In this document: positions 6,674 through 31,761 of the stretch, one piece after another
How positions within the stretch are numbered: position 1 is the first letter of the stretch
How the letters are laid out: each line of letters opens with the position of its first letter
Source: Roseibium sp. TrichSKD4
GTDB lineage: Bacteria; Pseudomonadota; Alphaproteobacteria; Rhizobiales; Stappiaceae
NCBI RefSeq assembly: GCF_000148725.1
Contig: NZ_GL476302.1
Span: forward strand, 20,260 to 52,939
DNA length: 32,680 nt
Reading direction: 5' to 3'
Position numbers and translations under genes: made by a program
The notes under the pieces: generated by a model
What the model saw: the letters and a program-made list of their open reading frames with translations, nothing else
The model's database searches: none
What the model was told of the DNA's origin: nothing

Positions 6674-6880
6674 CCGCTGAAATAAATAACAGCGCCAGAT
6701 CTTCGAAGTGCATCCAGCTGGTAGGCGGAAATTCCTTTCTGTTTGAAAGCGAAGAGATTGGTGCGCGAAAGCCAATATTTGCGACGAAACGCACAAGATC
6801 GGAGCCTGCAATGTCAACCGCGCGCTTGTTGCGCGTAATCTAAGAGTTTTAGAGCCAAGACGATATTGGGTAACAAATCA

Positions 6881-7525
6881 ATGAATGTATTCGAGCTATC
6901 TGGCGATGTCGGCAGTAACTATTGTGTAAACGGTGTTTGGTGTCTTACTCAGTCTCGTTTCTATGATGAAGTAAGCGATAAATGGATACCTGCGCTTGAA
7001 ACGAAACTGTTAGATGGAAAAAACATCACGGTTGAATCAAGGGCAGAGTATCTCTCCAGATGGTACGTTTTAAATTCAGATACGCTAGTTCAGAGTTACT
7101 TTATACTAGGTGATTTCAGCAAGTTGCGACTGAGCTTCCCACTCTTCAGTGCAAGCTTGAAGAAAATATTTGAAAGCGTCATTCCGGACGGATTTGAGTA
7201 TATCGAGATTGAGAAGGTCTGGGCCGAAAAACAGGCCTGCCCTATCCCTGGAGGTCCATTCTATCTGGCCAATCTGCTTGTCGAGCGCGACACTTGGGAT
7301 GATGAACTCACTGAAATTTATCCGATGACGCGAGTTGACGGGACCCGTTACGAGAGTATCGACGGGACCAAAAAGTTTGTCCAAAAATCAAAGCTGCATG
7401 GTGCCACGATATGGCGCGAGTGCAGAACAAATCATGTTTTGTGTACGCAGGAAGTGAAAGACATCCTCCAGAAAGCGGGTGTCCAAGGTATTCATTTCCA
7501 GTCTGTGCGTGTTTCGGACAAGTAA
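6881..7525 (+). CDS. Imm11-like (DUF1629) immunity protein
   Basis: The 214-residue protein shows typical DUF1629/Imm11 features in its second half: IPGGPFYLANLLVERDTWD, then a block around ATIWRECRTNHVLCTQEVKD, and a C-terminal GVQGIHFQSV. Imm11 proteins are predicted cytoplasmic immunity proteins that neutralise nuclease toxins, and as I recall they are often encoded next to AHH-type nucleases. The gene ends 31 nt before the start of the RTX protein that has an AHH-like N-terminus, so the pairing fits. A TTG at 6866 could extend the frame by five codons. I prefer the ATG at 6881, though neither start has a strong ribosome-binding site. Confidence 0.75.
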   Translation: MNVFELSGDVGSNYCVNGVWCLTQSRFYDEVSDKWIPALETKLLDGKNITVESRAEYLSRWYVLNSDTLVQSYFILGDFSKLRLSFPLFSASLKKIFESVIPDGFEYIEIEKVWAEKQACPIPGGPFYLANLLVERDTWDDELTEIYPMTRVDGTRYESIDGTKKFVQKSKLHGATIWRECRTNHVLCTQEVKDILQKAGVQGIHFQSVRVSDK

Positions 7526-7556
7526 TTTCAATAAAATTCTATCTGGAGTGCTAATA

Positions 7557-16500: not shown

Positions 16501-18536
16501 TACTTTCCGGCGGTCACAATGATGACTTAATTGAAGGTGGTTCTGGAGACGATGAATTGCGAGGGGGTATTGGGTCCGACAAATATGTCTATTCGCTGGG
16601 TGACGGCAACGATGTGATTTTGGACGGAAATGGCGCTAATTCTGTTTTGCTTCGAAGTATTTTGCCAGAACAGATTGAGTTGGCGAGCAATTTGGAGAAG
16701 GATCTATTGGTGAATTTCATCGAGTCTGGAGAACGGTTGACCATTAAAGGGCATTTTGGAAGCTCTGCAGGCACCTTCAGTCTTGAGTTTTCCGATGGAA
16801 GTTCCTGGGGCGCTGAAGAGATACTCAGAAATACTCCAATATATGGAACAGATGATAATGACTACCTTTCCGGGACGTCCGGGGACGACATTATCAGTGG
16901 AGCCCAAGGAAATGACACCCTTGCGGGCGGCGGCGGCAATGACACTTATATTTACAATCGTGGAGACGGGAATGATGAGGTCTTGGACCGGTCAGGTCAA
17001 AACACGCTTATACTAAAAGACATTATTTCTTCTGACGTCTATTTATGTGGTGCATCATCTAGGAACGGATATGTGATTGATAAGGTTACTTGGGAAACTA
17101 TATATATACCAAACGCATTTTCCAGTTCGAGTAGTTATTATCGAAAGTCTAATATCCAAAAAATCAAGTTTGCGGATGGTGTTGTATGGGACCGAAGTAC
17201 ATTTTATTCGAAGAAATCTGATATTAAAATGGGTTCCGCAAATGACGATCGACTGTACGGCAACTCTACCGGGAAATCTACACTTATTGGGGGTGAGGGG
17301 GACGATCAGTTAAACGGTTACCATTGGATAGATGACGAGTATATATATCGATTAGGCGATGGCAATGATGTTATCGTGGACTTTGGTGGTCGAAATCAGC
17401 TTAGTTTTGCAAATGTGAGTAAGCAGGATATCGAGTATTTTGTCTCCTATGGGGACTTGATGGTAAAGATCCTCGCTACAGGAAGCGAAATAAAGATACT
17501 GGACGCTTCAAATCTTACTCGGCCTATTGACACATCTATAAAATTCTTTGATGGAACCGTTTTTTCATCATCATACCTCGCTGCAGTTGGATATTCTTTA
17601 CAAGGTGTCAGTGACCAACTTGATATGACGACATCTCGTGTCTTGGAGGGCACGATTAACGATGATGTTATGAGCCAATATCACAGTTCCATTCCCACGG
17701 AGTTTCGGGCGGGTGCTGGTGCGGATATCGTTAATGGCACCAACGCGGATGATGTGATTTTTGGTGGTATCGGAAACGATACTCTTCGAGGCGGAGCAGG
17801 AGACGATATCTATCTCTTCAGTAAAGGCGATGGGCAAGACATTGTTAGTGACATTTCCGGAAATAATCACATCGTATTACTGGATGTTACGGACAGTGAA
17901 GTTGAGGTCGAGAGGGTCGGTGAATCCATAAAGTTAATTGTCACTAACACCGAAGATACGGTGCTGGTATCGAACGCCCTACAACTTGGTGAAAGAGGTC
18001 TTGGAAGCATTAGATTTAACGACGGAACTATATGGGGTCATGAGGAATTGCTTTCCAAGATAAACGAGTTTCAAGTGTCAGGAATACACTATGGAACATC
18101 CAAAAATGACGTTTATTTCGGTGGCGAAAATACTGATGATGTTAGCGGCGAAAGTGGAAATGACTATCTAAACGGTAAAGATGGAAATGATTACCTTTAT
18201 GGCGGTTCAGGTGCCGATCGGATAATTGGTGGAGAAGGTGCGGATTGGTTGGAAGGAAATAGTGGCTCTGATTTGCTCGTTGGAGGCGCGGGTGATGATA
18301 CCTTTTACTTCGGATATAATTTTGATATGGACACGATCGCAGACTTCCAAGCGGGTCCTGCAGCAGGAGACGTCATCCAATTGGATAACCTGCGTGTAAG
18401 CAGCTTTGAGGAAGCCGTTGCGTTAGCTGAGCAGCAAGAGAATGATGTTGTTTTTGATTTCGGTCGAGGTGACACTCTAACATTGTTAGGTGTTAATCTT
18501 TCTAATTTAACTAGTGACGATTTTTGGTTTTCTTAA
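7557..18536 (+). CDS. Giant RTX exoprotein with AHH-like nuclease, S8 protease and P domain
   Basis: The 3,659-residue protein (about 380-390 kDa) starts at 7557 with TGGAG 8 nt upstream. Domain order by residue: 6-75, AHH/HNH-type motif (NHHLIP at 6-11, NIMGLP, then HGGYH with His57 and His61); 280-395, glycine-rich hydrophobic segments; about 697-863, LDLDGDGVE region with EF-hand-like DxDxDG motifs common in RTX proteins; 908-947 and 993-1108, RTX nonapeptides; 1151-1237, cadherin-like domain; 1258-1595, subtilisin-like S8 domain (His1337, Asn1433, Ser1516 in GTSLAAP); 1608-1732, kexin-type P domain; then eleven RTX modules each ending in an F(A/S)DG.W block; and a C-terminal DTFYF/DDFWFS region typical of type I secretion substrates. 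There is no Sec signal. Calcium would fold the repeats outside the cell. No type I exporter is nearby. A nuclease toxin role is inferred. Confidence 0.92.
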   Translation: MSKLQNHHLIPQEYLPGGRNEHIIFKIEGVKELFQNNDPKYNIMGLPSEVNEIFQKHGGYHSGYTRFVSAQLQQIYDQGLTDPALIKNQLVGLTNVLKVNLANPNFDVPLNIQNADAIFQGWADSIKFRDYTGNADIPAVELDPANPQAYIDYQNKLMSKTAFLTGSELGLSFSVGQNGDFSSRHVDGDSIFNTFRYDSIDAGEQVDKLKQLVGDIEAVRDILKDVEFDPTSLEDRKTLAFVVNGVSSGELSIESAKTIAASFHDVTSGIPDVFEVGADDVSSTKPTVLYSAAATGLAGGLIIAKNLGVLSDLGEFLVTSAKADEFIENGQPEEAAKLWSVYAFELAGASATAGAGANVGGTYGGFWGALAGGVAGGIVGSIGGKALGELLYDRDPLSFQKLFPGHLPTDVIGDFVRNEDGRWANLHKDLNDPDLFVSDVGQIEELEQQRNSRLEYNDYIDFKLGAKKDPNSIDSWTYAGANGDRGIWMGADPGHLPDAETIELLDQKRAQRLELNATVDAIRLEDYSEAQGRFENDILVVSERIYGSHAETIQNNTNWLNEDAFQYGTTDFDSLSHGFDIATRFIHGNLGIGTENFGSHFASIRNDGLIATGGNWQITSVTANNPGFWAEVNAAISDWHQPGRANVIHTTASREVSRYWGDFSAGNLYRNTRVEDIAFSVSYLSRWSTSIAEVDPLVLDLDGDGVELTSFSDNYLFFDIDNDGHLERTGWVAPDDAMLVHDLDGNGRIDDITETLSEYYGAASGTGAIYGSSFEALTTLDSNGDGVVDQADSQYAALRLWQDANQNGQTDEGELVTLVDAGVTLLSLSDEADGAFVGGNEVKSNSTYTKSDGSRLTLAAVNFIADPSGLHAEVDGQGIRIELEDGSATYTVGDANGEIVTSSDKGATNLIGGIGDDVLTGDDQNNWLVGSLGSDTLHGGGGNDYLVADAADISVSQSNVQGGTGFDVAQFVGDQGIIFNLQKSQVEMAIGTDHADILSSGSSEQSIINGGAGDDIIFGGGADDVLNGEEGKDAIYGNSGDDLIRGHRGADTLEGGLGNDILQGGLGEDVLRGGAGEDLLTGGQGDDHLHGGGGYDVAEYSGSYADYIVTSNLDGTYTVTDRRNGSPDGADRLSDVEALNFADINEVQIDGDNPLPVKDVVRVSAEEDGKTYRIAISDLLANDLDYQGDSLSLREAFEATGGSVSLDDGEVVFVVEDGFSGIPSFSYRIADEHGNNGIQVGVTGTDLTAEMTGKVTLVLEHHPEDPQFLEQWYLPEINVLPVWKDYTGQGVTVGVFEPGPWDAEDYGQIDYSHPDLLPNIDQEALRTQNPNIEPTQHATLVAGVIGAARNDIGSVGVAYNSTLASEGISEKDISALRKWGDYDVANNSWGPEDQFGNSISDRDGNSKAYMIMESAIHDGREGLGTILVMAGGNGRQKGFDTNGSDLTNNRYGITVGAINAEGDLGNLQVAKAPFSNPGASILISAPGSNITSTSRLLENANGSIFGSDYETTQGTSLAAPIVSGVVALMLEANPSLGWRDVQEILAMSAEKIDDPNTEWHINGAVNWNGGGMHYSQDYGFGLVNAHAAVRLAETWQKQSSLHNEVQLSYQSGGLNSILPDGVGEFANTISVADHIKIENVEVQLDLHHMQLGDVEVLLVGPDGTESVLINRPGVASNSDGSGRGYDALDRIWLTSTTNHWGEYSAGDWTLIVKDKVTGESGKIRSWELRIFGEQASQDDLYVYTGEFSDQSNGDSLTVSDGDGYDIVNTSAILEDVIIDLSGFNWSKISGQPVVFNEGASIETVYAGDGNDLISGNKLNNILFGGRGHDLLRGNTGDDIIFGGNGDDIIQYTIGDGADVIESFYLGRSMAQGMDTLSFEGIGADDVALFQSGYDLNIQILSSGERIRVTNNFRAKSDLSALHDVDQYAVDQIIFSDGTKWNTQEILDRAIVKGSSEADLLYGTENDEKFNPGTGNDSVFGGGGNDTFLWKKGDGNDTISASIADQKNAEHDVYMQGLGQDLLILEDVLPNEVEIERLGSDIVFTVLKTGEKITLAESYVTFIDYATNEVMDNAPVDFVSFSNGDVWTLSELKTLAEDADGVSDEVTLRGAVLDERFPGEIAAKREIIRGTRGDDLLQGTNNNDVFRGGLGDDTLFGGDGDDVYLWKKGDGNDKIAASSLSSEGDEYGVVAQGLGQDLLILEDVLPNEVDIDRVGYDLVIKVHETGETITLSESYIEFVHYLSREVLDNAPAEIVKFSNGIVWTLPELEARAVVRGTDGDDTLLGTDLDDVFEGGRGDDVIYGFSGNDQFLYAEGDGNDVIKATIDQPGQQILGAAALGDDMLVFKDLNEDDVELYRDGVDIKVKIKSTGELITFEDQLQIFINAADREEIENISVDVIRFADGTTWTARDIALLTPIEGTNGNDYLTGSHTVWLDVIVGGRGDDTIRGANSRYASLDVEDVLIGGSGDDKLYGYAGSDVLDGGYGDDFLNGGAGEDRLEGGEGNDRLLGDADADVIIGGNGIDEVYYYTSNAAVIVDLNDALPEHGGHAEGDVLFSIENILGSSYADTLRGDDEGNSIDGYYGDDLLYGLGGDDDLKGAAGNDTIYGGAGSDLIYGGYGDDYVVGGLGDDHLQGGGGHDVYKYYHGDGNDVISDFKGVNIIDFDNISSTEVIFDRIGYNGADLQINVGEYSDSIVVKYYFDRQFSPIFSFNFADNAVLGFADLEEQFFHVVGTDQDDLLNYVLDGDYTITGGAGDDTIVTSAGDDTFVYALGDGNDIIRDRLGENRLILEDINADQVVIIRSGASDIDIKFKNTNENIHLEDVLLGSVAEDFRINFADGVVWNKGDLAAQGAIFGSNASDNITGSYYNDVIEAGRGDDNLQGGYGDDTYIFNSGDGVDQIIDGIGTNIVKVNGVAPSDVGVVYNSEDIVLELGGNGDSIVLDDFLPRWNQEIVIKFDDGTEWLRNNLLPDALSLMGSNSDEVLSGGHNDDLIEGGSGDDELRGGIGSDKYVYSLGDGNDVILDGNGANSVLLRSILPEQIELASNLEKDLLVNFIESGERLTIKGHFGSSAGTFSLEFSDGSSWGAEEILRNTPIYGTDDNDYLSGTSGDDIISGAQGNDTLAGGGGNDTYIYNRGDGNDEVLDRSGQNTLILKDIISSDVYLCGASSRNGYVIDKVTWETIYIPNAFSSSSSYYRKSNIQKIKFADGVVWDRSTFYSKKSDIKMGSANDDRLYGNSTGKSTLIGGEGDDQLNGYHWIDDEYIYRLGDGNDVIVDFGGRNQLSFANVSKQDIEYFVSYGDLMVKILATGSEIKILDASNLTRPIDTSIKFFDGTVFSSSYLAAVGYSLQGVSDQLDMTTSRVLEGTINDDVMSQYHSSIPTEFRAGAGADIVNGTNADDVIFGGIGNDTLRGGAGDDIYLFSKGDGQDIVSDISGNNHIVLLDVTDSEVEVERVGESIKLIVTNTEDTVLVSNALQLGERGLGSIRFNDGTIWGHEELLSKINEFQVSGIHYGTSKNDVYFGGENTDDVSGESGNDYLNGKDGNDYLYGGSGADRIIGGEGADWLEGNSGSDLLVGGAGDDTFYFGYNFDMDTIADFQAGPAAGDVIQLDNLRVSSFEEAVALAEQQENDVVFDFGRGDTLTLLGVNLSNLTSDDFWFS
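12990..18300 (+). repeat. Tandem RTX modules, eleven copies
   Basis: The coding sequence repeats a unit of roughly 350-900 nt: GG.G(D/N)D nonapeptides, then a GDGND.I block, a D.L.L.D section, and a closing (I/V).F(A/S)(D/N)G..W block. GDGND-like blocks occur near 13110, 13530, 14050, 14490, 15490, 15870, 16230, 16600, 16960, 17355 and 17825. Copies two and three are closest: both contain GQDLLILEDVLPNEV, and their DNA is highly similar at about 529-bp spacing (near 13601 and 14130), which suggests a fairly recent duplication. Confidence 0.85.
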
Positions 18537-18824: not shown

Positions 18825-18891
18825 TTAGACCTCATATAACGATCTTCCGTCGTGTTTTAGGGCGTAAGCTAAACACGACGCCTTACCATTG
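18825..18891 (-). pseudogene. Orphaned 3' end of the last cassette gene, cut off by the IS5 insertion
   Basis: If the IS and one copy of the duplicated target are removed, the frame of the gene at 21536-22510 continues in phase through CTA ATT AGC into 21 further codons (NGKASCLAYALKHDGRSLYEV would be split here as NGKASCLAYAL and KHDGRSLYEV) and a TAA at 18825-18827. The original protein would have been about 343 residues. The in-phase continuation, the natural stop and the hairpin right behind it make this a confident reconstruction. Confidence 0.85.
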
Positions 18892-18899
18892 CTAATTAG
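18892..18899. repeat. Left copy of the IS5 target repeat CTAATTAG
   Basis: The 8-bp palindrome CTAATTAG occurs here and at 21546-21553, directly flanking the IS5 element. Because it is a palindrome, the exact duplicated part (for example central TA, AATT or all eight bases) cannot be fixed from this copy alone. Confidence 0.75.
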
Positions 18900-18916
18900 T
18901 CCGCCCTGAACAACGT

Positions 18917-19664
18917 CTAAGCCATTGATGTTGCGCGTGGCCGAAGCAATACGCAAATATTCGATTTGACCGGTTTGGGGATGGGGTTTGTGATCCAGAG
19001 CAGCAAAATGATCAGTGCATTGAGGATCAGACGCAGGTTATGACCGGCTGCGGCCAGCAGGGCGTTGATGGCATCGCCATTTTTGCCATTGAGGAAGTTC
19101 CGGTCAAGTCGTCCATCTGTTTTCATGTGGCCGATGGTGGCCTCGATCGCTGATCGTCGTTTCAGCTCACGCTTCATCTGTGCCGTCAGCCCGCGCTTCT
19201 GGCCGGAGATCATGACCTTGGCGTCGCCCTCATAATCATGCCCCCGATAGCCACGGTCCACATAGACACGCTCAGCTTTGGTGCCGCAGACTTTCTCAGC
19301 CTGACTGATGGTGTCATTCAAGGTGTGCCCATCATAGGGATTGCCCTCAAAAGCCCTCGCCGCAAGAACCAATCCTTCCCGATTGGTCGTGGCAATGCCA
19401 ACCTTGGCCCCGAACTCGTAAGGTGTTCGCGCCTTGCCCTTGGCAATACAGGCCACTTCCGGCGCATGCATGGAATAAATCTTGTTTTTGTCCTTGGGGG
19501 TCTGGGCCAGAAGCCGCTCCACCAGTCCCAGCAGACGGGAGAACCGGTGCTCAAGACCTTCGTTGCCTGCGATCTTGCGGGAGATGTCGCGATAGACCCG
19601 GCCCAGATAGGTCTTCAGCTTTTTGAGTTCCCGGCGCATCCGCTTGAACTGTTTGGCATGGGCA
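18917..19664 (-). pseudogene. IS5-family transposase, C-terminal part
   Basis: This is the downstream part of the DDE transposase. It reads YAHAKQFKRMRRELKKLKTY from the insertion point, contains ERVYVDRGYRG with the second catalytic Asp, and EATIGHMKTDGRLDRNF with the catalytic Glu, as in IS5-family enzymes. It joins in frame with the part at 20834-21433 once the IS630 element and one TA are removed (GGCCGTTA plus TGCCCATGCC gives GRYAHA). An ATG inside this fragment could start a 240-residue product, but no functional enzyme is expected. Confidence 0.88.
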
Positions 19665-19666
19665 TA

Positions 19667-20831
19667 ATACCAAACGTCAGATGAAGTGACTCATATTTGG
19701 GCTTCCGGTTTTGTTGCGAATATGATTCCAGATGGCAAACGATGGGAGTTTGCCATGGGAGCCGCGATACCGCTTCGAGATGACTTTGACGGTTGTACCC
19801 TTCGCCGGTTGGCGAGGGTGTGCCGGGACGCCAAACAGACCCGTCGCCTTTTGTCATTGGCGGTGATCTATGATGGGGGGAGCCGTTCGGACGCAGCTCA
19901 TATTGGCGGAGTGACGCTCCAAATCATTCGCGATTGGGTGCTGCGTTTCAATGCTTCTGGTCCCAATGGTCTGAAGGATACGCCCAAGTCAGGTCGCCCC
20001 TCAAAACTTGACGAGCAGCAGCGTCGTGCGTTGATCGAGATTGTCGAACGAGGCCCGTATCCATCGGTGGATGCAGTGGTACGTTGGCGCTTGAAGGATC
20101 TCGCTGCGTGGATCCTGTCTGAATTTGGCATTGTCGTTGACGAGCGTACCGTATCGCGGGAGCTGAAGAATGCGGGTTATCGGCGTCTGACGGCCCGGCC
20201 GCAGCATCCGGCGCAAAACGAGTTTGCCGTCGAGGATTTTAAAAAAGCTTCCCAGCCGAACTGGCGGAAATCGGCAATCAGCTTGAAAGCGGCACCCCGA
20301 TAGAGGTTTGGTTTCAGGACGAGGCGCGTGTGGGTCAAAAGACCAAGATCACAAGGCGATGGGCAAAACGCGGGACAAGGCCGCGGGCCCCCAAGGATCA
20401 GCGGACAAAGTCAGCATGGATATTTGGGGCCATCTGCCCGGAACGGGGTGTCGGTGCTGCGCTCGTCCTTCCCAAGTGCAACATCATGGCCATGCAAATG
20501 CATCTTCAGGAAATCTCGTCGCAAGTCGCTCCGGGAGCCCACGCCGTTGTCATCCTTGACCAGGCTGGCTGGCACACATCTGGCAAACTCGACATTCCCA
20601 ACAACATTACCCTTCTCCCATTGCCACCGAGGTCTCCCGAATTGAACCCGGTCGAGAACCTATGGCAGTTCATCAGGGATAACTGGCTGTCAAACCGGGT
20701 CTTCAAATCCTACGAACAAATCATCGATATCTGTTGCCGCGCATGGAACAGGTTAATTGAACAACCATGGACCATCATGTCCATCGGAATGCGAGATTGG
20801 GCCCATCGGTTCTGAATTTTGACGGTTGGTA
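19667..20831 (+). mobile_element. IS630-family insertion sequence inserted in the IS5 transposase
   Basis: The element is about 1.17 kb. Its ends read ATACCAAACGTCA on the left and TACCAACCGTCA (reverse complement) on the right, and it is flanked by TA at 19665-19666 and 20832-20833. A TA target duplication is the hallmark of the IS630/Tc1-mariner group. Removing it restores the IS5 transposase reading frame exactly. Boundaries may be off by one base because the left end has one extra A. Confidence 0.87.
19755..20815 (+). CDS. IS630-family transposase, needs a -1 shift at an A6 run
   Basis: The first frame (19755-20303) carries the helix-turn-helix half (RRLLSLAVIYDGGSRSDAA, GGVTLQIIRDWVLRFN). 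The second (through 20815) carries the DDE catalytic half with VWFQDEARVGQ, VVILDQAGWHTSG and SPELNPVENLWQF. The frames join by a -1 shift at AAAAAAG (20241-20246 is the A run): TTT AAA AAA then AGC TTC CCA gives KKSFPAELAEIGNQ. The fused product would be about 353 residues, the usual length for this family. Frameshifting on A-rich slippery runs is known in IS elements, so this may be a normal way to make the enzyme rather than damage. The start at 19755 (MGAAIPLRDDFDG) is chosen because it begins the conserved region. Confidence 0.85.
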
Positions 20832-20833
20832 TA

Positions 20834-21433
20834 ACGGCCCGCCATCAAGGCCGCCTTTTTGGCAACTCTGGTATGGCTGCGACGCAAGATGATGCCGGCC
20901 CTCTTGGCCTGGCGCACCAGAAGCTGCAAGGCCTTGTGATAAAGACGGCTATCGGTGGGATGGGCAATGGCTTTGGGTTGAACGGTCGTATCAACCAAGA
21001 CCCGCTCAAGGCTGCTCTTCTTGATCGTCCCGCTCTCAATCGCAACACCTACCGTAGCAGAAAGAAGCTTTTCCATTCCCTCAGGACCAATCCGTTTGCG
21101 CCAGCGGGTCATGGTTGAGGGATCAATGGGGAATTGGTGCTGGAAAAACTCAAAACCGCAGAAAGACTGCCAGTAGGGGTTTTCAACCCAACGCTCAACC
21201 GTCTCTTCATCGGAAAGATCGTACATGTGCTTGAGAAAGTGCAGCCCGGCCATCAGACGCGTTGGTTTGGCCGGTCGTCCCAAGGGGCGATAATGCCTGC
21301 CGAACTCCGCATCAAATTCATCCCAAGGCATCAGACCAGACAGCCGCACCAACGAATGGTTCATATCGATGATTGCGGCCAGGCGTTCCTTGAACAGATC
21401 GCCACACCGTTTGTTGCGTTTTGAAGGTCTCAT
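20834..21433 (-). pseudogene. IS5-family transposase, N-terminal part
   Basis: The frame starts at 21433 with MRPSKRNKRCGDLFKERL and includes RPAKPTRLMAGLHFLKHMYD, the DUF772-like N-terminal region of IS5 transposases, and LERVLVDTTVQPKAIAHPTD with the first catalytic Asp. It is cut at GRY by the IS630 element. Beyond that the frame reads 26 or so residues of IS630 DNA to a stop at 20753. It continues in the fragment at 18917-19664. Confidence 0.88.
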
Positions 21434-21535
21434 GAGAATATGCCAGAAAATGCGTGCTTCGGATCAACTAACCGGCATATTCACACATCCAAAACCCAAT
21501 GGGTATCCATACTCTTCAATCAGTTAAGGGGTTTT

Positions 21536-22510
21536 TCAGCGCGAACTAATTAGTGTTTCTTTTGTGTAGTGAAGCGCGTATTGACTCGGCTGCGCATAGT
21601 AGATCGGCACTTCTGGTTTTCCAGATTTCTCAGCAGCAACCGCAAAAAGGCACATCGCCAGCGAAACAGGCTTCGGACCAAAAGGCAGCATATATGACGT
21701 GCGGTCTCCGTTGCCTGTGACTCTACATATCGCGTCAAAGGTTTGCGATACATCTACTGCTGAGATTTGGATAAAGTCTATGGGATCTATCTTTCTTAAC
21801 CCATCATTTTCACGACCGACAATCCGCTCCATGGTTTCAACAAATTTCCAGTTTCGCTTCAGGCCTGGCGGCCCTGGTGGGAAAGGGAACAACATTTTCA
21901 AGGCACGAGGCCTGTCTTCACCGAACATTCTAGAGAAACTCAACAAATGAAATCCGACACCGACAAAAGCAAAATCGTGCTCGCTGCGACCATCAATTGA
22001 GGGGAAACCCTGCAACGGGCGAAGTGCCTCAGGGTTTGTTGAAATAACTTTTGCGTATTTTGTTCCTTGAGTATACGCAACGACCAAATTCTTCACACGG
22101 TCATCGTTCACCAGTAGCTGGACCATCGGAAAAAACCAGCGCTTTGGAAACGACGTGATATCAAGCAAAACGTGGGAAGAAACAGCAATGGCTTTCTCCA
22201 CGTAGTCGGCAATTTCATCAAGCGAAGATTTTAATTCACCATACAGCTTTTCGTATTTACCTGACAGCCTTTGCTCAATCCGGTTCCAGGCACCCGCTAG
22301 CACGCTTTGTGTGGTCGCGGGGTCTTGGGGAAATGGATCCTCAATTTGAATTAAGAAAAGTCTTTCTGAGTTTTTTTCGAGCTCAAAAATTGAATCAACG
22401 CTTCTTGTCTCTGTTCCGACACAGGCCAGAACAGTCCACTTGTCATTGTTTTTGAAGTGAGGAAAAATCCAGCTGGCGTCTCCCCAAGCTCTAAATTTAA
22501 AATTCTTCAT
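21536..22510 (-). CDS. Fourth gene of the defence-like cassette, 3' end replaced by IS5
   Basis: The 324-residue protein begins MKNFKFRAWGDASWIF. Two conserved-looking segments stand out: VLLDITSFPKRWFFPMVQLL (115-134) leading to VVAYTQGTKYA, and MLPFGPKPVSLAMCLFAVA (274-292) leading to PIYYAQPSQYA. Both look like strand-loop-helix elements of Rossmann-type folds, and GPKPVSLAM recalls the ligand loop of CARF-like nucleotide sensors. No known catalytic motif is evident and I cannot assign a family. Its ATG overlaps the stop of the ATPase gene (ATGA, 22507-22510). The last two residues (SR) come from the IS; 21 native C-terminal residues lie at 18825-18891. Whether the shortened protein still works is unknown. 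Confidence 0.8.
   Translation of the reverse strand: MKNFKFRAWGDASWIFPHFKNNDKWTVLACVGTETRSVDSIFELEKNSERLFLIQIEDPFPQDPATTQSVLAGAWNRIEQRLSGKYEKLYGELKSSLDEIADYVEKAIAVSSHVLLDITSFPKRWFFPMVQLLVNDDRVKNLVVAYTQGTKYAKVISTNPEALRPLQGFPSIDGRSEHDFAFVGVGFHLLSFSRMFGEDRPRALKMLFPFPPGPPGLKRNWKFVETMERIVGRENDGLRKIDPIDFIQISAVDVSQTFDAICRVTGNGDRTSYMLPFGPKPVSLAMCLFAVAAEKSGKPEVPIYYAQPSQYALHYTKETLISSR
21546..21553. repeat. Right copy of the IS5 target repeat CTAATTAG
   Basis: It matches the copy at 18892-18899 and marks the right boundary of the IS5 element inside the fourth cassette gene. Confidence 0.75.
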
Positions 22511-24525
22511 TGATCAAATAGAGACCGTTCTTCATTTTGTATTTTATTTGAAAGTACTGACTTATAACCAGATTCATATATCCAATTAGCTACTTCGCTA
22601 ACTTTTGCATAATAAGGTTCTTTTGTCCTAATGTATGGAATTCTAAAATGCGGACAAAAAACTGGATGAAAATAAAACTTCTTCCGTTGCCTGCGGTCTC
22701 GGTTTTTGGTCGTGTGATCAAGCATCAACATGTTGCCATAGTCAGATAGCTCTTCCAAAAATCGCAAAACTTCAGGCATTTCTTTCAATTCATGTTCCGA
22801 AAGTGAAAAGCCCGTGTGTCCCGGGTTGCTCAGTTTCTCATCTGAAAATAGTTTCGCAGCTAATTTTTCTGCAACCAAATTAACAAACTGCAGGCGTTCA
22901 GAACTTCTACCCGTTTCTTGAGCCATTTTTTCAATCCAGAAATTACTTGCTTTGAGAATACCAATCGACTGCACAATTTCAGCGATTTTAGGCAACGTCG
23001 ATCGCACCTCAGACTCTTCACCTGCATATTGGATCCAGGTATCCCAAATGAATTGGTTTAAACTCAAAAACACTAGGATATTCCCGCCGGATAGTCCGAC
23101 GATTTCATCGGCGCCGCACCAATAAGGTCTTTGATGAGCCTGTGAAGCGATTTGCAGTGCTGCAGCTTCCCTCCTTTCTTTTCGCCAATAAGATTTGTCT
23201 TGCCACGGCAACTTGCTGTTCGGTACGTTTAGGTCGTACTTGTCTCCCTTCTGCCGTATCCAAATCTCACCGAGTTTCGCTGATAGAAGATCACTTGCAG
23301 CAAGTTCTTTGAGCTTGTTTCTTGTCTCCGGTCGCCAGCTGGCTTCGAGTTTAAGGATCTTTTCGGGCTGTCTTATGTTAAGCTTGTTGACACGTTCACT
23401 GGCTTTGAGTTGTGGGCCATACACAGTTTCAAGTTGATCTGCTGGTTCAACTTCATCTGAGTTTTCAATTTGGTTCGCGCTCAGAAGAAGGTCATCTCTA
23501 AAGCCCGCAAATTTTAGTCGACGAACAAAGACGTCTCTAGCAAAGTTCGGGAATATATCAATTCTTTGATCTTCTTTTCTCTTTAATAGAATATCTAAAT
23601 CGACATACTTATAGTCACGTTCTTCTTCGAGTCTCGCATCGGTACCTTGAATTCGACTGTGTCTACGCCACGCGTGTCCTCGTGCTCCAATCCGATATGA
23701 TACAGCTGCATCTCGGGCAGCCAGAGCTCTATTAATCACAGACCGATAGTCTACTTTTTTGCCTTCGGTGTTGCGTGAAGAAATATTGCCCAGTTCTTCA
23801 TATTGATCTACGTCAACAAACAAACTTGTGTCGTTGTCAACAATGCCAGCAGTTTTCAATGCAACAATACAATCTCGTATCGGATGTCCAATTTGAGTGC
23901 GAGTATTCGAAATTGAGGGATCTAATACTTTATCTTTGCGATGAAGGTACCTTCGAAAAATCCTAATTCGTCTTTGTATTCTTTCTTGAAGTTCGACAAA
24001 TGTGGAACAAGGCCCAAGCCAACCCTCCCAAATTGAGAGATCAGAAATAACTGGTGCGACTTCGTTGTACGCACTTCTACCTGTCTGTAACCCGACTTCT
24101 GTCCGTAAATGCGCTGGCCCATTCACGAGAGAGTTCAATGATTTGAGAAACCCATCAACTATCAAATAGTTTAAAAAATCAGCAAAAAGAAACTCTATTT
24201 CTTCCGGATCTTCGTCGATATCTTTGCGTAATCCGAAATCAATTGCGCTTTGATGAGCCAAATTTACGCTGGCGCTAATAAATTTTCTTCGCTTTTCGGG
24301 AACAGGGAAGTCCTCACCTTCTGCATCGTATTCAATACGTACTGTAGGTTGAAGTAAGCCAAGGAGCATGCTTTTGCCACTACCTTGAATTCCAGTTACA
24401 ACCACGTTCCCTGGAATAAATATGGGTAAAGCGTGAGGAACTAGATAATCGCTGAATATTGTCACAAATTCTCGTGAGGTAAATCGATCCCCGACGTAAA
24501 GCTCAAAAAACGGATTTGATTTCAT
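22507..24525 (-). CDS. P-loop ATPase, ORC/CDC6-like AAA type, in the defence-like cassette
   Basis: The 672-residue protein begins MKSNPFFELYVGDRFTSREF. It has a Walker A motif GIQGSGKS at 45-52 right after VVVTG, and a Walker B-like LFVDVDQYEEL at 235-245. The N-terminal NPF..LYVGDR signature and the late Walker B fit, from memory, the ORC/CDC6-like AAA ATPases found next to phosphoribosyltransferase-like genes in predicted conflict systems. The C-terminal half has no motif I can name and may contain winged-helix or other sensor elements. Its ATG overlaps the stop of the upstream gene (TAATG at 24523-24527) and its stop overlaps the next start, so the three proteins are likely made in fixed ratio. 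A likely role is an ATP-driven switch or scaffold. Confidence 0.82.
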   Translation of the reverse strand: MKSNPFFELYVGDRFTSREFVTIFSDYLVPHALPIFIPGNVVVTGIQGSGKSMLLGLLQPTVRIEYDAEGEDFPVPEKRRKFISASVNLAHQSAIDFGLRKDIDEDPEEIEFLFADFLNYLIVDGFLKSLNSLVNGPAHLRTEVGLQTGRSAYNEVAPVISDLSIWEGWLGPCSTFVELQERIQRRIRIFRRYLHRKDKVLDPSISNTRTQIGHPIRDCIVALKTAGIVDNDTSLFVDVDQYEELGNISSRNTEGKKVDYRSVINRALAARDAAVSYRIGARGHAWRRHSRIQGTDARLEEERDYKYVDLDILLKRKEDQRIDIFPNFARDVFVRRLKFAGFRDDLLLSANQIENSDEVEPADQLETVYGPQLKASERVNKLNIRQPEKILKLEASWRPETRNKLKELAASDLLSAKLGEIWIRQKGDKYDLNVPNSKLPWQDKSYWRKERREAAALQIASQAHQRPYWCGADEIVGLSGGNILVFLSLNQFIWDTWIQYAGEESEVRSTLPKIAEIVQSIGILKASNFWIEKMAQETGRSSERLQFVNLVAEKLAAKLFSDEKLSNPGHTGFSLSEHELKEMPEVLRFLEELSDYGNMLMLDHTTKNRDRRQRKKFYFHPVFCPHFRIPYIRTKEPYYAKVSEVANWIYESGYKSVLSNKIQNEERSLFDQ

Positions 24526-25481
24526 TATACCCTGTTAACCCTTGGAAATAGCGGTTTCCAGCTGATTGATTCTCTATGGAAAATCGTCAACGTATTGTTC
24601 GGACAATTGGAGTACATTACAACCTGTGCGCCGGTCTTTTTGAAACCAAGCATAGATTCAGGGTTAGGAGCATCTAATCGATCTTGTAAACGGAGAAACA
24701 GGTCCCAGATTTTTGCATTCAATTCTGGGTTAGCGCTTGCTGAACCTATTTTGAACATAGCTTCTTCTGGTATCAACATCCCGGGTGAATAATCGATACC
24801 ATTTAGACTTTGTGTTCTTTCCCGTATTTTTTCGTCGCCTTTTGGACAAACGACTAACGGACAAATAAGGAAGTTCAAGTCCCGGAAATGCTTCTCGACA
24901 AAGTCGAGTGCATCCTGAACTTGAGTTCCAGAACCAACAAAATCCTCCAAAAGAATAATTTTTGTTACATCGTTTTTTTGCAGATACGCTCGGATTTTGT
25001 CTTTGTCGCCAAATTTTACAAGAGATTTCCAGTCAGGTCTATGTTCCATGGTCTTCAGACCATTTACTTTCAAAAAAGAGTTAATCCGCAAGCTATCTGT
25101 AATTGGGCAGATCCAACATGCATTCAACTTGTATTTTATTTCATCATCAATCGTTGTGCTGAATGGGTTCAGCTCATCTTGTTCAATAATCCAACGGCTC
25201 AATGTGCCGCCGTACACCGAGCGATATAATGCTTCGAATTCTTTCCTACCCATAAAAAATAGCTCAATGAGCAGAGCCAATAGCAATTTTTGATCTCTTT
25301 CATCGTCGAGGTTATTTAGCCAGGAAATCAATCTATCTTCAAAGACTTGAAACTGATTTGGCTCATATTCTTGATATAATTTTCTGCCAAGAAATTTAAT
25401 AAACGATACAGATCCTGCCTCAAGGTGGTCCGTTTCTGAGGCATAATCCCATTCTACAGGGAGCTCAGTTAAGTTGCTCAT
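24525..25481 (-). CDS. Phosphoribosyltransferase-like protein of the defence-like cassette
   Basis: The 318-residue protein carries IILLEDFVGSGTQVQDAL (about 175-192), which matches the PRPP-binding loop of type I phosphoribosyltransferases (two acidic residues followed by G-S/T-G-T). A C-terminal block includes QVVMYSNCPNNTLTIFH and SWKPLFPRV. Proteins of this type (PRTase-CE-like, as I recall the name) are predicted effectors or nucleotide-metabolising components in bacterial conflict systems. Possible activities include base exchange on NAD or nucleotides, but that is conjecture. Its start overlaps the methyltransferase stop by four bases (ATGA, 25478-25481). Confidence 0.82.
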   Translation of the reverse strand: MSNLTELPVEWDYASETDHLEAGSVSFIKFLGRKLYQEYEPNQFQVFEDRLISWLNNLDDERDQKLLLALLIELFFMGRKEFEALYRSVYGGTLSRWIIEQDELNPFSTTIDDEIKYKLNACWICPITDSLRINSFLKVNGLKTMEHRPDWKSLVKFGDKDKIRAYLQKNDVTKIILLEDFVGSGTQVQDALDFVEKHFRDLNFLICPLVVCPKGDEKIRERTQSLNGIDYSPGMLIPEEAMFKIGSASANPELNAKIWDLFLRLQDRLDAPNPESMLGFKKTGAQVVMYSNCPNNTLTIFHRESISWKPLFPRVNRV

Positions 25482-26650
25482 ACCAAATACCTCGCAAAAG
25501 CCGCAACTTTCTGTGCAACAGGTGGCGGAACCGCATTGCCAATCAGTCGGTAACAGATCTTTGGTGTCTCTGAAAACGTGAAGTAATCTGGAAAACCTTG
25601 AATTCGTGCTGCTTCCCGAACGGTCATTCCGCGATGCTCTTTTGGATGCAAAAAAAGCTGATGGTCCCCAAATCTAGTATCAACTGTCGGAGAACTCTCT
25701 AATAGCGACAACCTACGATATTTGCCGTTGAAAGTGTTGGTAAGGTCGTAGAGATCATTAATTTGGCGTAGGTACCCCTTTTGGAGCAAACGCCGAAGCA
25801 CCTCATCTACGTTGACTGTGCATTCAGAATTAATTTCTTCAATTGAAACCGGGTCAGCATCTCCAAAATTTCGCTTCCTGTTCCTTCGACGAAGCGTCCT
25901 TATCAGCTCTAGAATCTGTCTTTCTTGCTTGGTTGTGTGACCAAAGACCTCAGGAATATGCCAGGTTGGAACCGAGAGTGCGCTTGCGCGAACATTACAT
26001 AGTTTTTGCCCTGGTTTAATGGATTCCGCTATCTTGTGGTGGCGAGTTCCGGACGCGAATACTCTGGGCTTATGCGAATAGTCTTGCATCGGCAGATCGT
26101 TAAAAACGTCTTTTAAAATTACTTTCGAAGATGCGCCTGAAAGTATGTCTGTTCGAAAGTATCTTCGATCACTTCTCGCGAATATAAATGCGCGCTTTCT
26201 TCTCTGGGGAACTCCAAAATTGTCACATGAAATGATTTTTATTTCCACATGATAGCCGCTGCCGCGAAGTATATCAAGTCCGATATTAAGTAAAGGGGAA
26301 TTTCTAATGTTTATGATACTTGCAACATTTTCTATAATTGCAAGTTTCGGAGATTCTTTTTTAATTATCTCACACGTATTTATAAGAAGGTTGTTTCTCG
26401 GATCATTTACTCGGTAACCTCCTGCCGTAGAGAATCCTTGACAAGGTGGCGTTGCAATCAGTATGTCGAAATTGGAAGGGATGCTATCTAGGCGATTTAC
26501 ATCAATTCTTCTTGCGCACAACTTCACGTTTCTGTTGTAAGATGATACAGCATAGCTATCAGAGTCATATGCTGCTAATATAGATATTCCTGCATTTTCG
26601 AATCCAAGATCCATACCCCCGCAACCGGAAAACAAACTAATGGCCTTCAC
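25478..26650 (-). CDS. DNA (cytosine-5) methyltransferase, first gene of the cassette
   Basis: The 390-residue protein has the C5 methyltransferase motifs in order: FSGCGGMDLGF (7-17, SAM binding), TPPCQGFS (67-74, catalytic Cys70), IENV (106-109), QRRKRAF (149-155), and GNAVPPPVAQ (371-380). Start is GTG at 26650 with AAGGAA about 8 nt upstream. The target-recognition region contains an insertion (about 239-305, TKQERQILELIRTLRRRN then VDEVLRRLLQKGYLRQINDLYDLT) that looks like a winged helix. No restriction endonuclease gene is adjacent. It probably marks self DNA for the three coupled genes downstream, as in modification-based defence, or autoregulates the cassette. Confidence 0.92.
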   Translation of the reverse strand: MKAISLFSGCGGMDLGFENAGISILAAYDSDSYAVSSYNRNVKLCARRIDVNRLDSIPSNFDILIATPPCQGFSTAGGYRVNDPRNNLLINTCEIIKKESPKLAIIENVASIINIRNSPLLNIGLDILRGSGYHVEIKIISCDNFGVPQRRKRAFIFARSDRRYFRTDILSGASSKVILKDVFNDLPMQDYSHKPRVFASGTRHHKIAESIKPGQKLCNVRASALSVPTWHIPEVFGHTTKQERQILELIRTLRRRNRKRNFGDADPVSIEEINSECTVNVDEVLRRLLQKGYLRQINDLYDLTNTFNGKYRRLSLLESSPTVDTRFGDHQLFLHPKEHRGMTVREAARIQGFPDYFTFSETPKICYRLIGNAVPPPVAQKVAAFARYLV

Positions 26651-26893
26651 TCAAAGTTTCCTTTTCCGAATTCACGAATCTTTCAGCAACTGCGAAAACG
26701 TAACACTTCGATTTGAAAATGTCTTTTTGTCTTGCGATAGAACGTTGTGGTGATAGCGTATAGCTTCAGCATTGATGGTTCCCCTTATGCTGAATTAAGG
26801 CGCAAGGAATGACGCGCGGCATTGAGGCTGACTAGATTTCGAATGTGATGCGGGTCAAGGTCCAAGTTGCCTTGTTATGTACCGAATTACGCA
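26651..26893. other. Promoter region of the cassette and end of the mating-related block
   Basis: The 240-bp gap precedes the leftward methyltransferase gene and follows the stop of the leftward gene at 26894. It must hold the cassette promoter. The stretch is AT-rich near 26690-26750, but I could not assign -35/-10 boxes with confidence, and no clear operator repeat is visible. Confidence 0.4.
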
Positions 26894-27316
26894 CTACTCC
26901 CCAATGTCTTGAATGATTACGTTTTCAGTTTCGTTCTCCATGTCATTTCTGGCTCGTGCGATGGCCATGCGGACGTTTTGGACTGTCCATATAGTGTGCC
27001 AGAAGATTGTTCGTTCCTGCATATATTGACCTACGCGCAGGGCAGCAATGGAATAGCCACCGACTAAGATAAGCGCACTGACAGATATGATCAGGAACAT
27101 TTCTGACCAGTACAAAAGATCGCCGAATTGATAACAGAACAGGATCAATCCCAAACCCAATATTCCTCCGATGATAAGCGGCTCGCGGCCTACAATGACG
27201 GATTGATTGGCAAGAATGGCTTCGTCTTTGTAGCGGGTTGAGAGGGTTTTGTTCGTGACTTTGATGCCTTGGGCATTTTCAAAATAGGTTTTGGTTTTTG
27301 GGGTAGCTTTTTCCAT
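26894..27316 (-). CDS. DUF6232-like membrane protein
   Basis: The 140-residue protein starts MEKATPKTKTYFENAQGIKV. A N-terminal segment (YFENAQGIKVTNKTLSTRYK) followed by AILANQSVIVGREP fits the DUF6232 pattern, and two membrane helices follow (PLIIGGILGLGLILFCYQF and MFLIISVSALILVGGYSIA). The rest is a charged tail. The ATG at 27316 has GGAGA about 9 nt upstream. A five-codon longer start at 27331 overlaps that site. It is the last gene of the leftward block of small membrane proteins behind the coupling protein; a role in mating or surface regulation is possible only by position. Confidence 0.65.
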   Translation of the reverse strand: MEKATPKTKTYFENAQGIKVTNKTLSTRYKDEAILANQSVIVGREPLIIGGILGLGLILFCYQFGDLLYWSEMFLIISVSALILVGGYSIAALRVGQYMQERTIFWHTIWTVQNVRMAIARARNDMENETENVIIQDIGE

Positions 27317-27361
27317 GATTGAGTTCTCCATAGTTTGCCGTTGTGATGATTGTTTAAGCGG

Positions 27362-27865
27362 CTATTTCCAGGGCAGCGCACCGCACTGACCATTGCTGGC
27401 GATTGCCATGATGTTTTGATCGATGGAACCTAAGCTTTTTGGCGTATGCGTTCTCAGACTTGCCACATGCAGTGTCATTTTGAGGCCCATGCCATCAAAG
27501 GCGGTATCAACTGCGCAGCCGCAGATGCTGGAGCGATCAATCTTTGACATGCGGAATTTTTGTGGACGCATTTGTTCCACCATGCGCTTTGCAGCTTCCA
27601 GACTTTCCTTGACCCCTGGCATGTTGCCAAGTGGCGAGTTCTCGTACATTTGGATGACGATTTGCGCTTGGCGGAATTTTTCGTTGTTTGGCGGCGATGT
27701 GGTCTTTTCTGCATATTGCAAACTGGCTTCGCATTGCGGAATGAGACGCTTTTCAGCGAGGCGTTTTTCGACTATTGGCTGTAGCCAGAGCATGGTGGCA
27801 GCACCGTAAACAATGAGGCCTGCCAGAAGCGCAGGCGGAAACAGGCGTGCGGGAAGTTCCATCAT
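27362..27865 (-). CDS. Membrane-anchored hypothetical protein, 167 residues
   Basis: A single N-terminal helix (LFPPALLAGLIVYGAATMLW, about 8-27) is followed by a soluble domain, probably periplasmic, with cysteines at IPQCEAS, SSICGCAVD and NGQCGA. The cysteine pattern suggests disulfides in the periplasm. Start at 27865 follows GAGGACATCAATC. It sits 45 nt before the DUF6232-like gene in the same leftward block. No family was recognised. Confidence 0.65.
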   Translation of the reverse strand: MMELPARLFPPALLAGLIVYGAATMLWLQPIVEKRLAEKRLIPQCEASLQYAEKTTSPPNNEKFRQAQIVIQMYENSPLGNMPGVKESLEAAKRMVEQMRPQKFRMSKIDRSSICGCAVDTAFDGMGLKMTLHVASLRTHTPKSLGSIDQNIMAIASNGQCGALPWK

Positions 27866-30081: not shown

Positions 30082-30945
30082 CTACGCTCGGTATTCTATC
30101 GGGAAATGGCCTTCGGCAGGGCTGCCTGGAACATCGTCGATCCGATAGATCCACGGATCGATTTGTTTGTAGTGAACCAAATCAAGCATCAGAGGCGGAT
30201 TTTGTTCCTTGAACAATATCGCGGTGAATTTGGGCATTCGTGTCAGTTCATCAAGCCGAATGAGAGGAATACCCTCTTCATTGACGCTCACATCAAACTC
30301 ACCGCCTTGTTTTGGAATAGTCGCGCTGTCGGTCACGATGGCACGTTGGCCTGCACGTTTGGAGTATTCTTCTGCTTCTTCCACATTGCGAATATCCATC
30401 GCCATGAAGACGGCTGCCTGTGTCCAGAACATGGAGGATAATTGCCCGTAGCGTGCTTTCAGGCTTTCCTGATCCTGAATAAAGGCAAACAGGCGCACGC
30501 CTCTCGTGCGTCCTATTTTCAAAACACGTTCAATGACGGGGATTGGCGCGGTTGATAAGTTCTCAAACTCATCTGCAATTATGGTGACTTGGGGATGGAA
30601 GCTGTCTGCTTCAATAGCAGTTGTGCAAATTGAGTTCAGGGCAAGTCCGGCAAATGTGTCATTAATGCCGGACTTTTCAGGGGGCAGGATAATATGGAAT
30701 GTTACGTTCTTGTTTGGGTTTTTGATGTCCGATAATTTAAAGGTGGAATATTCGCAAGATTTGCCAATCGGGGTGGCGGGTTCAAAGATTGTCAGCCCTT
30801 CCTGAGTTTCAGTGATAAAGCTCTGTGCGGATTTTGGATTGTTCTTGAACTGGCTCAAAAAACGTTTGCCTGCCCGTGCAATAGCTCCATCAAAATGGGG
30901 AATGATTGCCATGCGGGAAAAGATCTCCAGCAGATCTTCTGTACC
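30082..30945 (-). pseudogene. Type IV coupling protein (VirD4/TraG-type), C-terminal part, cut by IS66
   Basis: Coupling proteins are hexameric ATPases that bring relaxase-DNA complexes to the mating channel. The fragment has VTIIADEFENLSTAPI, a Walker B-like DE segment of TraG/VirD4 enzymes, followed by GRTRGVRLFAFIQDQESLKA and a C-terminal SVNEEGIPLIRLDELTRMPK. The Walker A half is absent. The frame runs on through 31170 but the residues beyond about GTEDLLEIFSRM are encoded by the IS66 end. The 5' part should lie beyond the IS, outside the window. Conjugation driven by this gene should be lost unless another copy exists. Confidence 0.78.
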
Positions 30946-30992
30946 GTGAGCGTTCGGTATTCCCGCTCTGACGGGGAGCGCAGTGGGGTGAT

Positions 30993-31018
30993 AATGTCCA
31001 TTTTCGTTAATGGACATT
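30993..31018 (+). promoter_or_regulatory. Hairpin covering the tnpA start codon
   Basis: AATGTCCATT and AATGGACATT are a perfect 10-bp inverted repeat with a 6-nt loop. The second arm contains the ATG at 31010. In the mRNA this could mask the start and keep transposition low, but it could also be an operator. Confidence 0.4.
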
Positions 31019-31417
31019 GTGAGGCACATTTTGGGTACGAAGAAGGGCAGCAAGAAGCGGTTTTGGTCGGATGACGAGAAGCGGTCGATCTGTTTGCAGG
31101 CCAGAGTGCCGGGGGTTTCGGTTGCGCAGGTTGCGCGCCGCTCTGCGATGAATGCGAACCTGATCCACAACTGGCTGCGTGATGAGCGGTTTGCGCCAGA
31201 AGACAGCGATTGCGTCCTTGATGGAGCGGCGTTTCTACCAGTGGAGATAGAGGGCCCGCAGGCCGCACCAGGCCACCAGATCGCGGCGCTTGCCTCGGAT
31301 ATGCCGTTGTCGGCTCAGCGGGTTGATATCACGCTGTCGGACGGGCGGCGGGTATTGGTGGAAGGGACGACGGCGCTGCCGACGGTGCTGGCTTTGGTTG
31401 AAGGTCTAATGCCGTGA
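31010..31417 (+). CDS. tnpA: IS66 accessory protein TnpA
   Basis: The 135-residue protein has an N-terminal helix-turn-helix of the IS3/IS66 Orf1 type: [19 protein letters not shown] then [20 protein letters not shown]. The C-terminal half includes [13 protein letters not shown]. It is the first of three IS66 genes; its last four bases overlap the tnpB start (ATGCCGTGATCC region, 31414-31417). In this family TnpA and TnpB are required with the TnpC transposase. Confidence 0.88.
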
Positions 31418-31761
31418 TCCCCGTGCCGTCCAACGCGCGGGTTTGGCTGGCTGCCGGGGTGACGGACATGCGGCGCGGGTTCAACACTTTGGCGGCTCAG
31501 GCGGAGAAGGTTCTGGAGCTTGATCCCTATTCTGGACATCTGTTTGTGTTCCGGGGACGGCGCGGTGATCTGCTGAAGATCATCTGGTGGGATCGACAGG
31601 GCGCATGCCTGTTCAGCAAGCGCCTTGAGAAGGGCCGGTTTGTTTGGCCTGCTGCGAAGGACGGTAAGGTCAGCGTGACGCCCGCGCAATTGTCGATGTT
31701 GCTTGAAGGCATAGACTGGCGGATGCCGCAAAAAACATGGCGGCCCCTGAGCGTCGGATAG
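31414..31761 (+). CDS. tnpB: IS66 accessory protein TnpB
   Basis: The 115-residue protein is a typical IS66 Orf2 protein: [40 protein letters not shown] and [17 protein letters not shown] are all family hallmarks. It overlaps tnpA by four bases and starts GTG/ATG-type at 31414. It is intact. Confidence 0.92.

Follow-up and report, generated by a model that had tools for sequence, protein, structure and literature searches.

A mobile methyltransferase, PRTase, ORC-type ATPase and CARF6 cassette that may join DNA marking to nucleotide signalling

Introduction

What is the role of a gene cassette that combines a DNA methyltransferase with a phosphoribosyltransferase (PRTase) and an ATPase, and in which no nuclease is seen? 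The question is raised by a stretch of 32,680 nucleotides from Roseibium sp. TrichSKD4 (contig NZ_GL476302.1 of assembly GCF_000148725.1, positions 20,260 to 52,939), hereafter called the window, in which a preliminary description had pointed to a four-gene unit at 21536-26650 as a possible defence system. We favour, with a probability of about 0.45, the reading that this unit is an immune-type cassette, moved horizontally, in which a DNA mark is coupled to signalling by nucleotides. The reading is built on protein families, predicted folds, motifs and gene linkage, from which we infer a protective activity.

Results and discussion

Four overlapping genes and a CARF6 protein

The four open reading frames (ORFs) of the cassette lie on the minus strand. 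The leading gene (25478-26650) starts with GTG and encodes a C5 DNA methyltransferase of 390 aa (Pfam DNA_methylase, E 7.9e-64). It is followed by the genes of a PRTase-CE protein (24525-25481, 318 aa; PF24390, E 2.1e-35), of an ORC-CDC6-like AAA+/STAND ATPase (22507-24525, 672 aa; PF24389, E 8.9e-38) and of a CARF6 sensor (21536-22510, 324 aa), whose 3' end is truncated by an insertion sequence (IS). The three junctions are, in the same order, a 4-nt ATGA, a 1-nt TAATG and a 4-nt ATGA overlap. ORFs and junctions were read again and agree with the preliminary description; the same order recurs in nine other loci.

The fourth protein had been described as an unknown Rossmann-like protein, an assignment that has to be replaced. 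It has no match in a Pfam scan, and the PADLOC CARF6 model PDLC01923 covers its residues 4-322 with an E-value of 7.5e-139. The predicted structure of its relative in locus L001 likewise has a CARF-type Rossmann fold and comes closest to Can1, Csm6, Csa3 and Can2. Two matches of a CARF profile to the PDB look like chance. Arg36 and Lys280 are invariant across 17 aligned CARF proteins and may serve in binding a cyclic oligonucleotide or other nucleotide. This CARF identity shifts the interpretation of the cassette from restriction-like towards nucleotide-signal-like.

The preliminary description had allowed that the PRTase and the ATPase might turn out to be housekeeping nucleotide or replication proteins; they belong instead to conflict-associated families (PF24390 and PF24389, and PRTase_III-A of PADLOC). 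The PRTase carries at residue 177 a loop, LLEDFVGSGTQ, that resembles a loop for phosphoribosyl pyrophosphate (PRPP), and its profile has a faint likeness to TT1426 (E 0.015), a PRTase-type protein of solved structure. The ATPase shows Walker motifs (GIQGSGKS and FVDVDQYE) and a C-terminus of winged-helix-like appearance. The nearest structures to the model predicted for its relative in L001 are the archaeal ATPases PABY2304, Sso1545 and Cdc6/Orc1; among the plain Foldseek matches to this ATPase model none fell below E 0.001, and PDB sequence searches with single CARF, ORC and PRTase proteins gave no matches.

Conservation and distribution of the unit

Conserved four-gene linkage had been proposed as support for a defence system, and it is indeed found: nine other loci share both the four genes and their order. 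A contig scan with the fourth protein returned 27 pattern matches leading to five loci, all of which (5/5) hold the four genes in order; the CARF gene of one of them, L005, contains an internal stop. The CARF6 model detected 4 genomes among the 390 from the order of Roseobacter, namely two already known and two new ones (L047 and L048, both four-gene), as well as 3 of 288 genomes in a Verrucomicrobiota sample and 2 of 398 in a Pseudomonadota sample. The Verrucomicrobiota matches comprise two four-gene loci, a second copy in genome G005 (L050) and one in G830 (L054), and a weak match in G787 (E 7.2e-12) that lies in a calcineurin-ORC-CARF6 unit (L055). The Pseudomonadota matches are G001 and a weak match in G576 (E 7e-6), whose locus L066 is a PRTase-ORC-CARF6 unit with no C5 methyltransferase. 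The four genes are thus present in 9/9 close relatives and in 0/2 weak ones.

Intergenic gaps in the ten loci range from -43 to +15 nt, long overlaps being possibly overstated since the start codons of the relatives are the first in each frame. The pairwise distances of the four proteins in nine of the ten loci are correlated with r of 0.956-0.993 (0/5000 permutations reach each value), and common ancestry by itself would also yield a high r. The tenth locus, L005, was excluded from this correlation and from the CARF alignment on account of its internal stop. The cassette is lower in G+C than its flanks in 8/8 loci computed, and in intact relatives, such as L001 of Roseobacter insulae and L003 of Aliiroseovarius, the unit measures about 5.1 kb. 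Loci L006-L039 are short, and only those extended to greater length entered the neighbourhood analysis. A plasmid search with the L003 PRTase returned a single distant match, in L061, a PRTase-ORC-CARF6 locus with a fragmented ORC frame.

For L005, misbinning or a recent transfer is possible: its metagenome-assembled genome (MAG) is named Verrucomicrobia, and by eye its relaxase resembles the ones in Rhodobacterales loci. The same MAG contains L050. By eye, a trpF-like ORF (6741-7436) lies beside the unit of L005 and trpC/trpD-like ORFs (5631-7255) beside that of L050, and the two units may stand in a single trp region.

An ORC-CARF6 core with an exchangeable enzyme

The four-gene unit appears to be one form of a wider kind. 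In the Pseudomonadota sample 14/398 genomes exceed the ORC-CDC6-like cut-off; all 14 were inspected and, of the 69 below it, only G576. A CARF6 gene adjoins the ATPase gene in 9/14, a count that includes both G654 (L042) and G512 (L071), which is close to a copy of it with identical contig position and gene sizes. The five without adjoining CARF6 are L046, with a 1239-aa protein, and L067, L068, L069 and L070, which are short or weak matches. CARF6 candidates beside ORC-type ATPases match the CARF6 models of PADLOC in 7/7 cases. ATPase and CARF6 stay paired, and the enzyme gene before the ATPase varies between PRTase-CE, HD-CE and calcineurin-type. The HD-CE class comprises L041, L062 and L064 by Pfam, L043 by inspection, and L063 by a profile built from two sequences; one of the two is L043, so that the profile is no test of L043 itself. 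The calcineurin type comprises L042 and L055 by Pfam, and L071, which is nearly a copy of L042. A C5 methyltransferase gene stands directly before the HD gene in L041, L062, L063 and L064, and three genes off in L043. In a third type the PRTase is joined by HAD/SIS-like, PfkB and NADAR genes (L044, L049 and L066, partly by Pfam with SIS below its cut-off, and L045 by eye). In the CARF6 tree these classes are clades, with support of 0.997 for the methyltransferase-PRTase class, 0.998 for the HD class and 0.999 for the SIS type; the ORC tree gives no support to the basal node of the methyltransferase-PRTase group.

Some loci of this wider kind have particular neighbours. At 3875-12860 of L064, on an Agrobacterium plasmid, a C5 methyltransferase-HD-ORC-CARF6 unit is followed by genes annotated as thyX, as vsr and as another C5 methyltransferase. 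A NADAR gene also adjoins the PRTase of family NF053875 in L052, and PRTase-CE and NADAR proteins may have related sugar-base bonds as their substrates.

The methyltransferase and its recognition region

The methyltransferase exceeds the cut-off of the NCBIfam model dcm and contains FSGCGG, PPCQG, ENV, QRRKR and GNA, which we take to be its catalytic motifs. In a tree of the catalytic part, the methyltransferases of the two cassette classes are not grouped together (deep nodes are weak, 0.10, 0.23 and 0.83), and over residues 1-160 they are no more alike (0.294) than they are to plasmid methyltransferases (0.309). These two results suggest that C5 methyltransferases were recruited twice, once per class.

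We take residues 201-325 to be the target-recognition region, by their position; alignments of the methyltransferase profile to the PDB span catalytic parts only among the matches listed. Likeness within the ten sequences of the methyltransferase-PRTase class is 0.553 in this region against 0.452 in residues 1-160, and within the four sequences of the HD class 0.527 against 0.444. In control plasmid methyltransferases the order is reversed (0.132 against 0.362), these controls being five (H1, H2, H4, H5 and H7, out of 15 plasmid matches listed), few and of mixed specificity; an annotated endonuclease adjoins 3/5 of them. Since the recognition region is conserved within each class, the simplest reading is one fixed target site per class. 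The region may also be used for contacts.

Source of the ligand and relation to known systems

A CARF protein would bind a nucleotide ligand, and we looked for its source in the host genomes. Cas10 (Csm1 or Cmr2) is above cut-off in 0/8 host genomes, whose completeness is not stated, and a CRISPR-type cyclic oligoadenylate is therefore unlikely as ligand in these hosts. Cmr2 gave no match at all and Csm1 three weak ones, over the first 59-77 of 753 positions and in frames of 194-246 aa, which we take to be HD-domain proteins. SMODS was found in 1/8 host genomes (G005), and no Cas10 or SMODS messenger synthase is encoded in the four-gene unit. The Csm1, Cmr2 and SMODS models each match in some control genomes. 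On these counts, which cover the synthase models Csm1, Cmr2 and SMODS, a type III CRISPR or CBASS partner was rejected. An obvious candidate for the synthesis or breakdown of the CARF ligand would be the unit's own PRTase, or the HD or phosphoesterase protein of the other classes.

Among known CARF proteins, the fourth protein matches the CARF6 group (CARF6--CARF_CARF_CARF in PADLOC), a clade that reportedly goes back to Makarova et al. 2020; here a methyltransferase and a PRTase are its fixed partners. Unlike the CARF proteins of type III CRISPR (Can1, Csm6, Csa3, Can2), it has no evident fused effector. The unit resembles type II restriction-modification (R-M) in that a C5 methyltransferase, apparently active by its Pfam match and catalytic motifs, leads the operon, and in the control-protein-like helix-turn-helix (HTH) gene upstream in L002. 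It differs in the conserved recognition region and in the endonuclease, which is not seen in the unit: ORF inspection of the ten loci found no cognate endonuclease between or directly beside the genes, the flanks being only partly profile-scanned. The preliminary description had stated that there is no restriction endonuclease, and in none of the ten loci did we see a nuclease gene within the unit; the cassette was accordingly not counted as R-M proper.

Three further systems were compared. BREX has an ATPase, BrxC; its partners PglZ and PglX were not found, as the four proteins of the unit match neither family in Pfam, PADLOC (best 25 matches for the methyltransferase) or NCBIfam. The PRTase of retron type III-A is a distant relative of the unit's PRTase (PRTase_III-A, E 1.5e-30). 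Retrons contain a reverse transcriptase, and the same three libraries recognise none among the four proteins; retron RNA was not searched. The DS-32-type PRTase (NCBIfam NF053875) is also distantly related, and was rejected with a score of 18.4 bits against an equivalog cut-off of 250; its loci L052 and L053 have different neighbours, among them further large ORFs and one ORF of NADAR type. To judge from the DS-number naming in the part of PMC13092281 available to us, 'DS-32' would be a DefensePredictor system.

The single parts of the unit are already in public libraries. The Pfam numbers of ORC-CDC6-like, PRTase-CE and HD-CE are consecutive, and curators were therefore probably aware of a link among the three families. 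In titles and the beginnings of abstracts we found no description of a methyltransferase-PRTase-ORC-CARF6 unit; an earlier one in Makarova 2020 or Burroughs 2015 is possible.

The interrupted copy and its surroundings

In the window the CARF6 gene is interrupted by an IS on the minus strand (18900-21545), with DUF772/DDE_Tnp_1 transposase pieces, which is itself split by an IS630-like element on the plus strand (ORFs 19686-20815), both recognised by Pfam from their pieces. The inverted ends of the outer IS (18892-18914 and 21531-21553) are 87% complementary, and CTAATTAG is present on each side, at 18892 and 21546. A candidate for the missing C-terminal end lies beyond the IS on the minus strand (18825-18899), where frame 0 resembles the ends of the relatives.

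The preliminary description had placed the cassette on a mobile element beside ardA and a toxin locus, and mobile surroundings are indeed present. A TraG/TraD-type coupling-protein ORF (30082-31170, 362 aa, a partial profile match) and an IS66 TnpB ORF (31414-31761, Pfam) give the window the surroundings of a conjugative element, and Pfam identifies resolvase ORFs at 4-474 and 3818-4378. The toxin locus is a giant ORF of 3685 aa (7479-18536) that contains RTX repeats as well as subtilase and P-proprotein domains; an Imm11 ORF stands before it (Pfam; the pair within 6866-18536).

Around the relatives, integrases are found near L002 (Pfam) and near L003 and L047 (by eye), and relaxase-like genes near L001, L002, L005 and L047 (by eye). 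Four loci have an HTH gene immediately before the methyltransferase gene, in the following regions: L002 (3112-3829), where it matches R-M control-protein models of PADLOC, L047 (6027-6729), where it is a Pfam HTH_3, and L003 (3044-3487) and L005 (57-1144), both by eye. A small ORF with hydrophobic stretches separates the HTH and methyltransferase genes in L002, L005 and L047. In the HD-class locus L043, the gene of a protein matching the PADLOC candidate PDC-M33A (6077-7966, E 5.3e-191) is positioned between the C5 methyltransferase gene and the HD-ORC-CARF6 unit. About 5 kb from the four-gene unit of L004, an 853-aa protein (14110-16671) consists of HD-CE fused to an HSP90-like ATPase domain.

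Proposed mechanism and alternatives

If the cassette is immune-type, the methyltransferase, whose catalytic motifs are present, would put 5-methylcytosine (m5C) on one class-fixed DNA site, as its conserved recognition region suggests, and this mark would protect resident DNA. The ORC/STAND ATPase, recognised by its fold and Walker motifs, would bind DNA or an invader product and assemble with ATP on unmarked DNA. It would then switch the PRTase, which may consume PRPP in synthesising, modifying or depleting a nucleotide. The CARF protein would, by its fold, bind the nucleotide ligand and act as receiver or as brake of the signal, and the effect would be to arrest growth or to block invader replication rather than to cut DNA. 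A more specific version, which we regard as unlikely, is that the ATPase detects DNA without the fixed m5C mark and that the PRTase makes a phosphoribosylated messenger, unlike cyclic oligoadenylates, which CARF reads; with the ORC-CARF6 core unchanged, the HD-CE and calcineurin versions would produce or degrade different messengers.

The position of the methyltransferase gene, first in order and overlapping the PRTase gene, would also suit an R-M analogue without nuclease, in which PRTase, ATPase and CARF form a toxic complex kept inactive by host methylation, and in which loss of the mark releases the complex and so stabilises the element like an addiction module. The HTH genes upstream in four loci (control-protein-like in L002, HTH_3 in L047) and the relaxase- or integrase-like genes near several loci would fit. 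Recognition regions of R-M units usually diversify, however, and here they are conserved within each class; moreover, PRTase and calcineurin types exist without adjoining C5 methyltransferase. We consider this alternative somewhat improbable. It is also doubtful that CARF is a brake that binds or cuts a signal, or a reader of a phage-altered host nucleotide, with the PRTase as direct effector draining a nucleotide or base pool and methylation in a side role such as shielding the element from other systems: a side role leaves unexplained the two apparent methyltransferase recruitments with class-specific recognition regions. Mobile-element housekeeping, where the ORC-like ATPase and the methyltransferase would control replication, partition or transfer of the element, has in its favour the predicted resemblance of the ATPase to DNA-bound Cdc6/Orc1 proteins and the same relaxase- and integrase-like neighbours. 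It is made very improbable by the constant partnership of CARF6 with the ATPase, by the faint likeness of the PRTase profile to TT1426, by the patchy distribution (4/390, 3/288 and 2/398 genomes) and by the ORF lists inspected, in which no replication gene recurs beside the cassettes.

The immune reading itself has results against it. The CARF frame of the window reads into the IS and terminates at 324 aa, compared with 329-345 aa in eight relatives, and the part cut off contains the final strand of the predicted model (residues 328-335); with the gene interrupted and this strand lost, the window copy may be nonfunctional, silent or stuck in one state. The existence of PRTase-ORC-CARF6 and calcineurin-ORC-CARF6 units without directly adjoining C5 methyltransferase implies that the DNA mark is dispensable for the core, and the small, mixed set of control methyltransferases is a further weakness of the reading. 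On plasmids, megablast of 21000-27500 and searches with the CARF and ORC proteins gave no match; no relative was found in phages with the ATPase, nor in viral contigs with CARF and ATPase scans. Among ten neighbour proteins of relatives, PADLOC gave one strong candidate-defence match (the PDC-M33A protein) and, for one HTH gene, control-protein-like matches, the rest being weak or none, so that no dense defence island is seen. The ardA neighbour did not stand either, no ArdA family being matched by Pfam among 30 scanned window ORFs, a part of all its ORFs. The defence idea of the preliminary description thus keeps its conserved linkage, conflict families, lack of nuclease and mobile surroundings, and is weakened by the damaged copy, the missing ardA and the little neighbouring defence. 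For an immune-type cassette speak the four-gene order, co-divergence, patchy distribution, low G+C and CARF identity, as well as the exchange of enzymes on the ATPase-CARF6 core, the two apparent methyltransferase recruitments and the 0/8 Cas10.

Conclusion

CARF proteins are best known, generally and in the part of PMC12669027 available to us, as readers of Cas10-made CRISPR messengers. Here a CARF reader belongs to a conserved unit, together with a DNA methyltransferase and a nucleotide-type enzyme that can be exchanged, in eight hosts with no Cas10 above cut-off. The small size of the unit in intact relatives makes cloning and testing feasible. If the immune reading is true, the cassette would unite DNA self-marking with nucleotide-messenger immunity and would imply a messenger not yet known.
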